Shown piece after piece: positions 31,408 to 35,492 of a stretch of 64,000 nucleotides of DNA; position 1 is the stretch's first letter; each line of letters starts with the position of its first letter. Location: positions 1 to 64,000 of the forward strand of contig NZ_CAMYKG010000004.1 in assembly GCF_947258925.1 (NCBI RefSeq), in the 5' to 3' direction. Both the position numbers and the translations under genes were made by a program. This stretch comes from an uncultured Eudoraea sp. (lineage in GTDB: Bacteria > Bacteroidota > Bacteroidia > Flavobacteriales > Flavobacteriaceae). Below the pieces are notes generated by a model that saw only the letters and a program-made list of their open reading frames with translations, was not told the origin of the DNA and made no database searches.

Positions 31408-32082
31408 AAAATTAAATTTGTCCGCTCCAAAAACAAAAGATATCCGTTTAACTATAACTTATTTGGATGAAATGCGTAGTGTTCCCTTTTTATCCTTGTC
31501 ATAAAATTCCTATATACAGATGGTTTTTTACAACTTTTGGTTAATAATATGGCCTACAGTGTCTTGGTAAAGTTTATGTTTACCTCGGATAAAAGGTAAG
31601 TTCTTAGCTTCTTCAAACAAATAAGCGCTCACATTTGTAAGCGCTTTTCAATCTTAAGAGATCTCGACAGGATTACTCGCTTTGCTGGTGTTCCTTTGTG
31701 CTCCCAGGTGAAAATAGAAAATCCATGGCTAAGCCATATTTTTTATTTTTCTCGAAGATTAGAAAGCAATACTTTCCATCTTCTCCAAAAACAAAAATCC
31801 ATTACTTTCGTAATGGACTTTCTGCTTTAAGTGACCTTGGCAGGATTATTCACAATGCTCATTATCCTGACAAAGCTCCGCTTTGAAAATAGTTCGAACA
31901 AAAAAACGCTCAAGCAAGCTTGGCGTTTTTCCTTATCGTACTATTTATTCGTGACCTCGACAGGATTTGCTGGCGCACGTCCTTTTAGCTCAAAGTTGCA
32001 AATACAAAACCACGAGCTGTCGCTCGGGGTATTAATTTTATTCTAAAACTCAAACGCTGTTTGGTTTTTCCATAAAACAAAT

Positions 32083-32104
32083 AACCACGCCTTTTGGCGT
32101 GGTT
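32083..32104 (-). terminator. Hairpin terminator after the tRNA-like gene
   Basis: A 9-bp perfect stem (AACCACGCC with GGCGTGGTT) and a TTTT loop, 12 bp downstream of the tRNA-like gene on the - strand. It is followed by a T-rich stretch on that strand. Confidence 0.6.
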
Positions 32105-32116
32105 TTGTGCTTGATG

Positions 32117-32190
32117 TGACCTCGACAGGATTCAAACCTGTAATCTCTTGAGCCGTAATCAAGTGCATTATTCAGTTATGCTACGAGGCC
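32117..32190 (-). tRNA. tRNA-Arg-like gene, anticodon ACG, with unusual D- and T-loops
   Basis: The 74-base - strand sequence folds as a full cloverleaf. It has a 7-bp acceptor stem (GGCCTCG with CGAGGTC, one G-U), D-stem GCAT/ATGC, anticodon stem CTTGA/TCAAG with loop TTACGGC, a 5-base variable loop and T-stem ACAGG/CCTGT. The anticodon is ACG, and A20 and C35, the arginine identity bases, are present. The D-loop has A at position 19 in place of G, and the T-loop has U at 56 in place of C. These two positions normally pair, so A19-U56 replaces G19-C56. No CCA is encoded. It could be a working minor tRNA or a tRNA-like RNA; a plain pseudogene is less likely given the intact stems. Confidence 0.7.
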
Positions 32191-32267
32191 TTATATATTC
32201 TGTTCCCTAACGGGCTGCAAATATATTTCTTTTTACATTTAAGGCAAAATTAGAACCTATCAAATAA

Positions 32268-33464: not shown

Positions 33465-35132
33465 TTAATTCCCTTTCTTCGTATGGACTTCTATAACGCC
33501 ATTTTTTGCTTTCTTTCCATACTTTTCAAAGGCCTTATCACCTTTGAAGACATTAATAGTCTCAATTTCTTCCGGAGCTAAGGATTTTAGCTTCTTCTTA
33601 CTGCTTTCTTTACCGTCAATTATATAGAGTGGGTCTTCTTCATCGGTATCTATAAAAAAGAAACTATTGCCTTCTTCACTTATTACTTCGATATCATTAT
33701 CATCATCCGAATCTTTAAGAATAAATACATTGGCGTCTTTTTCATCTGAACTGCTTTTCATGATCCGCACATGCTTCTCATAAATCTCATCATCTACTCG
33801 CATTTCCTCTATGGTTTCGTGGGTAACTTCTTTTCCTTTGACAATAATAATTTCTTTGCCGTTGATGTTTTTTATCTCAATATGCCTGTCATCGTCATCA
33901 TCGCTGTAAACCCAGGTATGGACGTTTGTCTTTTCATGTAGGACCTTGTGCTTAGATTTGGAATCACCCATAAAAAATAAGTTGTCATCTCCATTATAGA
34001 CTAATGTTATGGGATCTATGGGTTTGCCATCATTGTCAAATTCGGCAGAACTGCTGAATTTTTTACCGTCCTTCTTCTTAGAGCGCATATCAATTTCGAT
34101 GTTTATGATTTCTTTATTTTCATTATGTACTACCGTATATGAAAAATCTAATTCCTTTGCCGATAATTCTTTTTTAATTTCCTCCAGTTCCTCATTAGTG
34201 GTATCCTTGTTAATCAGGATTTCGATAGTTTTCTGGTTTTCAGCCGATATGAAGCTGTCATCCGATTTTGGGGTATAGATCGTCCGGGTGTTAAAGCTTA
34301 ACAGGAAAATGGCCAATGCCGGAAGAATTAATACCATTTTCCAGGCGTTTCTTTTGTTTGATTTTGATTTGTGTAACATAACTATTCGTTTTTTGATTAA
34401 TGAACTGTAAAAATTATTCGTGATTGGCGTAAAGAATTGATTTCCAGATACTTTAAGTAAAGCATATTTATAGGCCTTATCGGATACGACACTTTGAATA
34501 GCGGTGTCATCCGCCAAAAATTCCAGATTTTGTTCTATGTTCTTTTTATATAACCAGCTAAATGGATTTGCCCACAATATAATAGTAACAAAATGGGCTA
34601 TCAATAAGTCCAAAGAATGTTGTTGGGAACTATGTGCACGTTCATGTTTTAATATAGCTTCGAGCTCAAGGGTATCAAATTTGTTTGGGTTATAGATAAT
34701 GTATCGAAAAAAAGAAAAAGGGGCAATGTCTTTATCGGTTTCTACAAAAACGTTACCATCTTTCTTAATGATTCTGTTGGAATTAATCACTTTACGAATA
34801 GCAAAGAGTTGGAAAATAAATCTGAATACAAGCATAAGTAAACCAAGGCCATAAACCACGTAAAGGATATTCAGCCAATTAAATTGGGGTTTACCTATTT
34901 CATAAGAAGAATTTACCGCTAAAGAATCTGCAATGGTTAAAGGAGTCGCAACGATTTCCACGTAGTTATTGATAACTATTAAGGGACAAATAAAAGCTGC
35001 AATGACTCCGGTTAATAAAAAATTGCGATTCGCCCGAAAAAAGGTTTCGTTTTTTAGAAAAGCCTGGTAGAATACATAAAATAGGACAAGGATTCCGGAG
35101 GCTTTTAATAGATAAATCATGAAAGCTTCCAT
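33465..35132 (-). CDS. BlaR1/MecR1-like M56 family metallopeptidase, sensor type
   Basis: A 555-residue membrane protein. The N-terminal ~300 residues hold four predicted helices and the M56 zinc motif H163-E-R-A-H167 with a downstream Glu204 in QNLEFLADD. The next ~190 residues are rich in Asp and Lys and probably lie outside the membrane. The last ~50 (PLYIIDGKESS ... EIETINVFKGDKAFEKYGKKAKNGVIEVHTKK) match the TonB-plug-like tail seen in many Bacteroidota M56 proteins. In BlaR1 systems the protease triggers removal of the BlaI repressor. The gene abuts the BlaI-like gene. No penicillin-binding sensor domain is present, so the signal is not a beta-lactam via that domain. Confidence 0.88.
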   Translation of the reverse strand: MEAFMIYLLKASGILVLFYVFYQAFLKNETFFRANRNFLLTGVIAAFICPLIVINNYVEIVATPLTIADSLAVNSSYEIGKPQFNWLNILYVVYGLGLLMLVFRFIFQLFAIRKVINSNRIIKKDGNVFVETDKDIAPFSFFRYIIYNPNKFDTLELEAILKHERAHSSQQHSLDLLIAHFVTIILWANPFSWLYKKNIEQNLEFLADDTAIQSVVSDKAYKYALLKVSGNQFFTPITNNFYSSLIKKRIVMLHKSKSNKRNAWKMVLILPALAIFLLSFNTRTIYTPKSDDSFISAENQKTIEILINKDTTNEELEEIKKELSAKELDFSYTVVHNENKEIINIEIDMRSKKKDGKKFSSSAEFDNDGKPIDPITLVYNGDDNLFFMGDSKSKHKVLHEKTNVHTWVYSDDDDDRHIEIKNINGKEIIIVKGKEVTHETIEEMRVDDEIYEKHVRIMKSSSDEKDANVFILKDSDDDNDIEVISEEGNSFFFIDTDEEDPLYIIDGKESSKKKLKSLAPEEIETINVFKGDKAFEKYGKKAKNGVIEVHTKKGN

Positions 35133-35492
35133 CTAGTTTTCTTTTTCAATTAGTTCTATAATTTCCTTCAACTCCTCAATGGATATCTTTTGTTCTTTGG
35201 CAAAAAAGGATACCATACTTTTATAGGAATTGTCATAATAATCTATCAGGGTATTGGAAATAAAACGTTTTCTATAGACCTCTTTGGTAACAAGAGGATA
35301 ATAGCGATGTGTATTGCCAAACGCTTCATGAGCAACATAATTCTTATCCTCCAGGTTCCGAACTATAGTAGATAAGGTATTGTAATGTGGTTTTTTACCT
35401 TTCAATTCTTCCCTGATTTCCTTTACAAACGCTCGCTCTAGTCTCCAGAGGATTTTCATAATTTCCTCCTCCTTATTGGTAAGTCTATGCAT
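35133..35492 (-). CDS. BlaI/MecI/CopY-family repressor
   Basis: A 119-residue winged-helix repressor: MHRLTNKEEEIMKILWRLERAFVKEI start, the recognition helix in PHYNTLSTIVRNLEDKNYV, then YYPLVTKEVYRKRF and a C-terminal dimerisation helix. The stop is directly followed by the M56 gene start. It should repress this operon by binding the two palindromes just upstream (35530-35564). Confidence 0.92.
   Translation of the reverse strand: MHRLTNKEEEIMKILWRLERAFVKEIREELKGKKPHYNTLSTIVRNLEDKNYVAHEAFGNTHRYYPLVTKEVYRKRFISNTLIDYYDNSYKSMVSFFAKEQKISIEELKEIIELIEKEN

Follow-up and report, generated by a model that had tools for sequence, protein, structure and literature searches.

In integrons, attC cassettes stand in directional arrays at a fixed site and form hairpins that are imperfect, contain mismatches and vary at the tip; their core consensus is RYYYAAC / GTTRRRY. 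The rtT repeats of a tRNA operon contain part of the 3' end of the tRNA, and RtT RNA is Rfam family RF00391. The stretch from the T-loop to the 3' end of a tRNA is the classical duplicated core of integrated elements. Bacterial tRNA-Arg(ACG), the gene at the center of this study, reads CGN codons via inosine, and A20 and C35 are arginine identity bases. Two reports assign rtT RNA to the tyrT operon of E. coli (PMC4986893, PMC2965389). A further report describes partial tRNA copies that integrative elements leave near the gene and that bound elements of about 9-23 kb (PMC9897764). Tail duplications behind tRNA genes are usually taken as the scars of integrated elements. The tails described here, behind tRNA-Arg(ACG) of an uncultured Eudoraea sp. 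and behind other tRNA genes of its relatives, instead end small, strongly folded, apparently swappable units, the hairpin of which tends to follow the T-stem of its own tRNA. We read these units, with a chance of being right that we put slightly below even, as small cassettes with a defined fold and with terminators of their own, for which the tRNA tails serve as sites of recombination; their anatomy is observed, and the recombination is what we infer. A prior description of such tail units was not found in the open-access literature searched, outside which most subscription papers lie.

The window, by which we mean the whole stretch of 64,000 nucleotides that was analyzed, contains a single tRNA according to ARAGORN, tRNA-Arg(acg) on the - strand at 32116-32190. 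The gene proper occupies 32117..32190, and the extra base, 32116, is the encoded C74. Rfam family RF00005 matches 32117-32190 with 59.6 bits (gathering score 29, E 2.2e-10), a match to the tRNA covariance model with anticodon ACG. Folded without constraints, it adopts the cloverleaf at -21.3 kcal/mol (z -2.35), equaled or bettered by 4 of 200 shuffles. An earlier note on this DNA had read a full tRNA with this anticodon between exactly these two positions, and it had named the bases correctly. The sequence has A15, G18, A19, A20, C35, A46, U48 and the T-loop UUUGAAU (with U56), all stems are paired, and the A15-U48 pair and both arginine identity bases are in place. In the draft genome from which the window stems (3.30 Mb, 80 contigs, 94.5% complete), 28 tRNAs were found, and the window tRNA is the only one with anticodon ACG; a separate canonical tRNA-Arg(ACG) is not among them. 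The gene was likewise found once in each of five genomes of the genus.

The unusual feature of this tRNA is its tertiary pair between positions 19 and 56. We tallied these positions in 235 distinct tRNA sequences, a non-random set made up of relatives and of loci picked by tail or by D-loop/T-loop patterns. A19-T56 is present in 35 of 39 distinct tRNA-Arg(ACG) sequences and G19-C56 in the remaining four, and a mixed state occurs in none. For tRNA-Arg(UCG), the numbers are five and three of nine, with one sequence unparsed, and the tRNA-Arg(UCG) of the source genome is one that has A19-U56. Arg(CCG), Arg(CCU) and Arg(UCU) together have G19-C56 in 19 of 19 cases, and the 168 remaining tRNAs comprise 149 with G-C, 4 with G-T, 2 with C-C and 13 unparsed. 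A pattern that permits both forms has matches in 285 of 395 genomes of the class. Across the sequences compared, A19-U56 is the state that tRNA-Arg(ACG) usually has in this lineage and is of old standing, and the two positions change jointly. Since the pair is compensated in every Arg(ACG) counted and sits in the sole ACG tRNA found, the data support the proposal of the earlier note that the double change reflects selection on the folded RNA, here of a working tRNA.

The same note had also offered a variant tRNA, or a tRNA-like RNA with another job, for which the unusual 19-56 pair alone would speak. That pair turns out to be usual in the lineage and common to Arg(UCG), and because the window tRNA is in addition the sole ACG tRNA found, no reason is left to assume another job, which we regard as exceedingly improbable. 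Most likely, the window tRNA is intact, lineage-typical and functional. It resembles bacterial tRNA-Arg(ACG) in its cloverleaf, in A20 and C35, in a promoter-like site in front and in being the single ACG gene found, and it differs, together with most relatives examined, in having A19-U56 instead of G19-C56. The term A19-U56 is absent from the open-access literature among the matches listed. As a tRNA the gene is ordinary, yet it documents that, in one isoacceptor of a lineage, the two partners of the 19-56 tertiary pair have covaried cleanly in nature.

The promoter-like site was read from the sequence as TTTTG, 19 nt and TATATTTG (32218..32249, - strand), which, going by the consensus, we take to be of the Bacteroidota -33/-7 type. 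Within 40 nt before tRNA-Arg(ACG), TATATTTGCAG is found in genomes G001, G002, G003, G006 and G008 (genomes and loci are cited by our own G and L numbers, G000 being the source genome), and is absent from the same interval in G005 and G009. The relatives of the source genome put it in Flavobacteriaceae; one of them, G003 of the same genus, matches Eudoraea adriatica DSM 19308 at the tRNA-Arg(ACG) locus with 100% identity across 2702 bases. Behind the tRNA, the terminator scan places a terminator-like hairpin at 32083..32104 on the - strand, which scores on the + strand too. There are no ORFs of at least 100 aa between 30881 and 32268. A pair of genes for a BlaR1-type M56 peptidase and a penicillinase repressor (BlaI/MecI-like) lies near the tRNA, at 33465-35492 on the - strand.

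The last 17 bases of tRNA-Arg(ACG), from T-loop base A58 to the encoded C74, recur three times downstream on the same (-) strand, a feature that the earlier note does not list. Copy 1 (31951..31967) is identical to the tRNA 3' end at 17 of 17 positions, copies 2 (31831..31847) and 3 (31658..31674) at 15 of 17 each. The tRNA 3' end is thus directly repeated downstream of its gene, as in an attachment-site scar, and in the source genome the 15-base tail core, with at most one mismatch, is confined to this array. The tails delimit three units, all on the - strand. Unit 1 (148 nt, 31968..32115) consists of a closing helix, three hairpins and a T-arm-like hairpin that we call P3 (AGGA-CG-TGC-GCCA-GCA-AA-TCCT, 31961..31983, - strand); stretches 78-82% similar to unit 1 occur in L382, L377, L322 and others. 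Unit 2 (103 nt, type A, 31848..31950) begins with a rod whose hairpin and T run are terminator-like, followed by a hairpin P2 (CAAAGC-GGA-GCTTTG, 31871..31885, - strand) and by P3 (CAGGAT...ATCCTG, 31841..31869, - strand, from the fold), and in its lowest-energy fold GCTTTG pairs with the tail and not within P2. Unit 3 (156 nt, 31675..31830) has terminator-like hairpins at 31793-31822 and 31724-31738 according to the terminator scan and P3 at 31668..31695 (- strand, from the fold), and it is 86% identical over 155 nt to a unit of E. adriatica in L281. Taken with the tail and against dinucleotide shuffles, the fold z-scores of units 1 to 3 are -4.41, -4.70 and -4.06.

Each of the three tails has a terminator-like hairpin behind it. 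The one behind tail copy 3 was located by the terminator scan at 31623..31646 (- strand), and the one behind tail copy 1, a hairpin and T run in unit 2, is seen in the fold only and was not picked up by the consensus scan. Altogether, eight terminator-like sites fall within 731 bases, versus 0.6 expected; five of them read on the - strand and three on the +. Units 1 to 3 are non-coding and strongly folded, and their terminators are partly readable on both strands. A promoter inside each unit, for which a TATTTKCA box had been considered, was dropped, the box looking like the T-tract end of a second hairpin.

The density of terminator-like sites is what one would expect if tandem duplication and slippage had copied the tRNA end together with its terminator, the benefit being insulation of highly transcribed tRNA genes, and the tail and hairpin being by-products of palindrome correction. 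Near-identical tandem units in L320 and L326, as well as full tandem tRNA-Arg copies in other Bacteroidia, speak for such an origin. However, close relatives differ in unit type, yet the units resemble those of other genera, and the hairpin shows compensatory variation as well as constant features of its own, namely the AA that it keeps even where the tRNA has another base, for example Arg(CCU) or Leu(CAA). We therefore consider duplication of terminators unlikely as an explanation of the arrays, and prefer recombining cassettes.

How does the array compare with the described systems? In an Rfam scan of 31550-32250 with E values up to 5, the tRNA was joined by 14 other matches, all of which score far under the gathering value of their family, and RtT was not among them; at the gathering threshold, eight loci yielded only tRNAs, in seven of the eight. 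Like the rtT repeats, the window tails hold a piece of the tRNA 3' end. Unlike them, window-type units are found at many tRNAs, each with its own tail, and have terminator-like hairpins and the T-stem hairpin. With the tRNA copies of integrative elements they have in common the partial tRNA copy near the gene, and here too integrases occur beside such tails, but the units are mostly about 90-170 nt long, have strong folds and stand in arrays. The directional arrays at a fixed site and the imperfect hairpins are reminiscent of attC cassettes; the window units differ from these in that they are without an ORF of at least 100 aa, have no attC core in the tail (inspection of AATCCTGTCGAGGTCAC by eye on both strands did not reveal RYYYAAC / GTTRRRY) and, as far as ORFs of at least 100 aa between 30881 and 32268 show, have no integron integrase tied to them. 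Three further candidates were set aside. A CsrA sponge had been suggested by the GGA loop of P2, and CsrA was found in none of eight genomes of the genus. A RAYT/REP system is probably not required, since the Y1 transposase PF01797 exceeds its cut-off in three of these eight genomes, G000 included. For an origin of the tails by reverse transcription, the copies seen do not extend into CCA.

The arrangement is not peculiar to one tRNA. In five genomes of the genus, tail copies follow 39 of 157 tRNA genes at a distance of up to 600 nt downstream, 47 copies in all (at most three mismatches, full tRNA copies excluded), and the same 157 genes have no tail copies upstream and none on the opposite strand. 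By genome, tail-bearing genes number 8/28, 11/36, 10/36, 3/35 and 7/22, where in two of the five the tRNAs read were 35 of 36 and 22 of 23 matched. The 47 copies include the own end of a Leu(UAG) that ARAGORN had misplaced (position 6) and a 30-nt tandem at tRNA-Ser(GCU). As a control, probes from the tRNA 5' end gave five copies in the same test, and two inner parts gave none each. Behind the tRNA genes fetched from one genome of another genus of the family (41, of 46 matches) and from one genome of another family of the order (54, of 59 matches), there were no tail copies.

Across the family, an exact non-tRNA copy of the Arg tail occurs in 28 of 397 Flavobacteriaceae genomes, as judged by a pattern that is blind to altered tails. 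In a scan of named genomes, which also produced many chance-like matches outside Bacteroidota, the 80 matches listed include the tail in Kordia, Croceitalea, Nonlabens, Aquimarina, Maribacter and others. The two scans, in which some genomes appear twice, contain at least 167 Arg tails, 85 within 700 nt behind a tRNA-Arg and 82 elsewhere, the latter a mix of chance matches, contig ends and tails that are real but distant. As many as five tails stand in the arrays of L322, L320, L326 and L347; in Nonlabens L322 two unit types alternate, and in Haloflavibacter L320 a repeat of about 185 nt occurs in three similar copies. In L331 (Flagellimonas onchidii), L354 and L386, the tail repeats are very short (14-45 nt behind the tRNA), and those of L354 and L386 retain parts of the T-arm. 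In other Bacteroidia (G070, G145, G177, G264, G377), three full-length-looking tRNA-Arg(ACG) matches stand in tandem, with start-to-start distances of 83-111 nt.

Counting from tRNA or tail to the next tail, we distinguished 67 segments with lengths mostly of about 88-105, 121-137 and 144-168 nt. A common plan can be recognized, from which some segments deviate. Directly after the tail comes a strand that is followed by a terminator-like hairpin; longer units then have a middle hairpin and another hairpin readable as a terminator of the other strand; at the end stand a strand complementary to the first, the small hairpin P2, and P3. The last has the form AGGA-NN-xyz-loop-z'y'x'-AA-TCCT, its 3' strand continuing into the tail, and thereby rebuilds the T-stem before the tail. 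The AA before the 3' strand of the T-stem is constant in P3 even where the tRNA differs, as in Arg(CCU) and Leu(CAA). Fold z-scores lie below -2 in 57 of 60 segments (median -4.33), and paired runs in the closing helix average 8.42, versus 5.70 +- 0.18 with swapped partners (60 segments).

Compensatory change was assessed by alignment-free tests because MAFFT seemed to misregister the hairpins of long units. On the negative side, RNAalifold found no pairs in 19 long units, taken from the 34 with lengths of 144-170, and only P2 in 24 short modules (23 of 30, plus one from the window); P2 is also all that the covariance model R1 contains. The strict P3 motif is present in 29 of 64 contexts; with the triplets swapped, 6.3 +- 2.1 contexts have it, and at most 16 in 2000 trials. 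Among 59 distinct 23-mers of P3, changes on both sides fill 47 cells versus 23.6 +- 4.3 after shuffling (0/500), and the covariation score is 0.217 versus 0.131 +- 0.014 (0/500 shuffles), with lower values for slid versions. In the same 59 23-mers, the number of double-change pairs and of pair types is no higher than in shuffles, which counts against the preferred reading. The upstream strand of P3 fits its own tail better than the tails of other tRNAs (5.33 versus 4.65 +- 0.14, maximum 5.11 in 500; 45 units, 16 tRNA kinds). Relatedness is only partly corrected for in the P3 and helix counts. Within these limits, compensatory changes in P3 are shown; errors of replication can, however, keep a palindrome paired even where selection is absent.

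The tRNA-Arg(UCG) units provide examples, their P2 stem being altered on both sides (CAAGGC/GCCTTG instead of CAAAGC/GCTTTG) and their P3 reading GGGA/TCCC, which matches that tRNA. Such changes in P3 and in the closing helix, together with the strong folds, could be explained if the units were structured trailers, i.e. small RNAs released from read-through tRNA transcripts, like rtT from tyrT in E. coli, with the tail hairpin kept for a role of the RNA, for example as decoy for a T-arm-binding enzyme or RNA. Two further findings fit such RNAs. Behind tRNA-Arg(UCG) of G006, P2 and P3 form a 48-nt block that recurs as a tandem repeat and leaves out the remainder of the tail, and unit 2 is 93% identical over 87 non-coding nt to a unit of another genus, in Croceitalea dokdonensis (L347). 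If the units are RNAs, they would make up a large set of tRNA-linked RNAs, apparently undescribed.

Several observations speak against trailers, among them the turnover of the units. Six genomes of the genus with 99-100% identical tRNA-Arg(ACG) have five kinds of first unit, one each in G000, G002, G003 and G008 and one that G001 and G006 have in common. In G005 and G009, where tRNA-Arg(ACG) is 84% identical, the first unit of G005 resembles that of G008, and G009 has a further kind. Tail arrays are thus apparently exchanged quickly. Moreover, a terminator-like hairpin precedes the units and no promoter of their own is established, the exact Arg tail is confined to the small fraction of family genomes given above (altered tails missed), no Rfam family matches, and a CsrA sponge, as one possible role, lacks its CsrA. 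On balance we hold release of trailer RNAs to be rather unlikely, if worth keeping in mind, and favor cassettes that recombine at the tails.

Tyrosine integrases lie near tails in L296 and L390, with no tRNA seen at either locus. A 120-nt stretch before the tail is common to L322, L368 and L369 (one base apart in L369), and its last 50 nt also precede the tail in L399; this stretch looks like the end of an integrated element. In Aquimarina megaterium, a GH5 cellulase gene and an LPMO10 gene (L305:2612-7444) lie between tRNA-Arg(ACG) and a distal tail 5.6 kb away. The source genome has five tyrosine recombinase matches, of which three (G000:C24:59619-60041, G000:C43:22173-22271 and G000:C20:5547-6044) are within about 1 kb of a tRNA gene, the neighbors being tRNA-Pro(UGG), tRNA-Arg(CCU) and a tRNA cluster; none of the five lies in the window array. 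In this group, elements very likely do integrate at the tRNA tail.

It could be argued that each tail is simply the leftover of a large element that once integrated at the tRNA and was later lost. The classical extent of the duplicated core counts for such scars, as do the integrases and the common element end at such tails and a 50-aa integrase remnant about 0.9 kb from tRNA-Arg(CCU) of the source genome. Leftovers would not be expected to have common lengths, folds and unit types across genera, and unit types that are common to several genera weaken the scar reading. Within the genus, stretches 72% similar to unit 3 are found at tRNA-Arg(UCU) of G006 and G009, which speaks for recombining cassettes. 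Between the window tails we met neither an integrated element nor its remains, but units of 103-156 nt without ORFs of at least 100 aa. The likely element end of L322, L368 and L369 is without the P3 hairpin, which speaks against scars as the source of the units and counts against mobile cassettes as well. Scars of lost elements strike us as very improbable, and the short units seem to form a separate class.

Together, these considerations suggest a model in which the units are small non-autonomous elements that would enter and leave at the tRNA tail. Recombination would regenerate the tail, so that the tRNA is kept whole and its transcription kept closed. P3, the T-arm-like hairpin, may be the recognized site, as folded DNA or as RNA. 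Candidate enzymes would be tyrosine integrases, as beside the tails of L296 and L390, or small GIY-YIG nucleases, which lie beside some such tRNAs. In the genomes examined, there was no excised or circular form of a unit, and no mobilizing gene tied to the units. A more far-reaching version, which we think doubtful, is an integron-like system in Flavobacteriaceae without known integron parts, in which non-coding cassettes of about 90-170 nt would have P3 and tail as their recombination site and the T-arm and tail of the tRNA as fixed entry site, and tRNA genes would gather and exchange terminator cassettes. If mobile, the units would be tRNA-targeted elements of a very small kind, on which recombination of folded DNA could be studied in a natural setting. 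Whether they are mobile or RNAs, fragment counts behind tRNAs need re-reading in Flavobacteriaceae.

As mobilizers of the units, the GIY-YIG ORFs were rejected: they are present at few loci, upstream of or between tRNA copies, and none lies in the short units. In L454 (G267, Bacteroidia; L454:537-794 and onward to about L454:850), an intact tRNA-Arg(ACG) and a tRNA-like copy flank an 85-aa GIY-YIG nuclease ORF, which ends within the D-arm of the copy. The anticodon arm of this copy is a plain hairpin without an anticodon, and a similar copy is present in L455. Other small GIY-YIG ORFs, at L011:19-363, L136:1182-1496, L134:1251-1616, and in L101 and L057 (- strand), directly precede or enter tRNA genes (Asn twice, Pro, Asp and Arg); Pfam confirms those in L011 and L134, and those in L136, L101 and L057 were recognized by motif only. 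Three of these five tRNAs have tail copies downstream.
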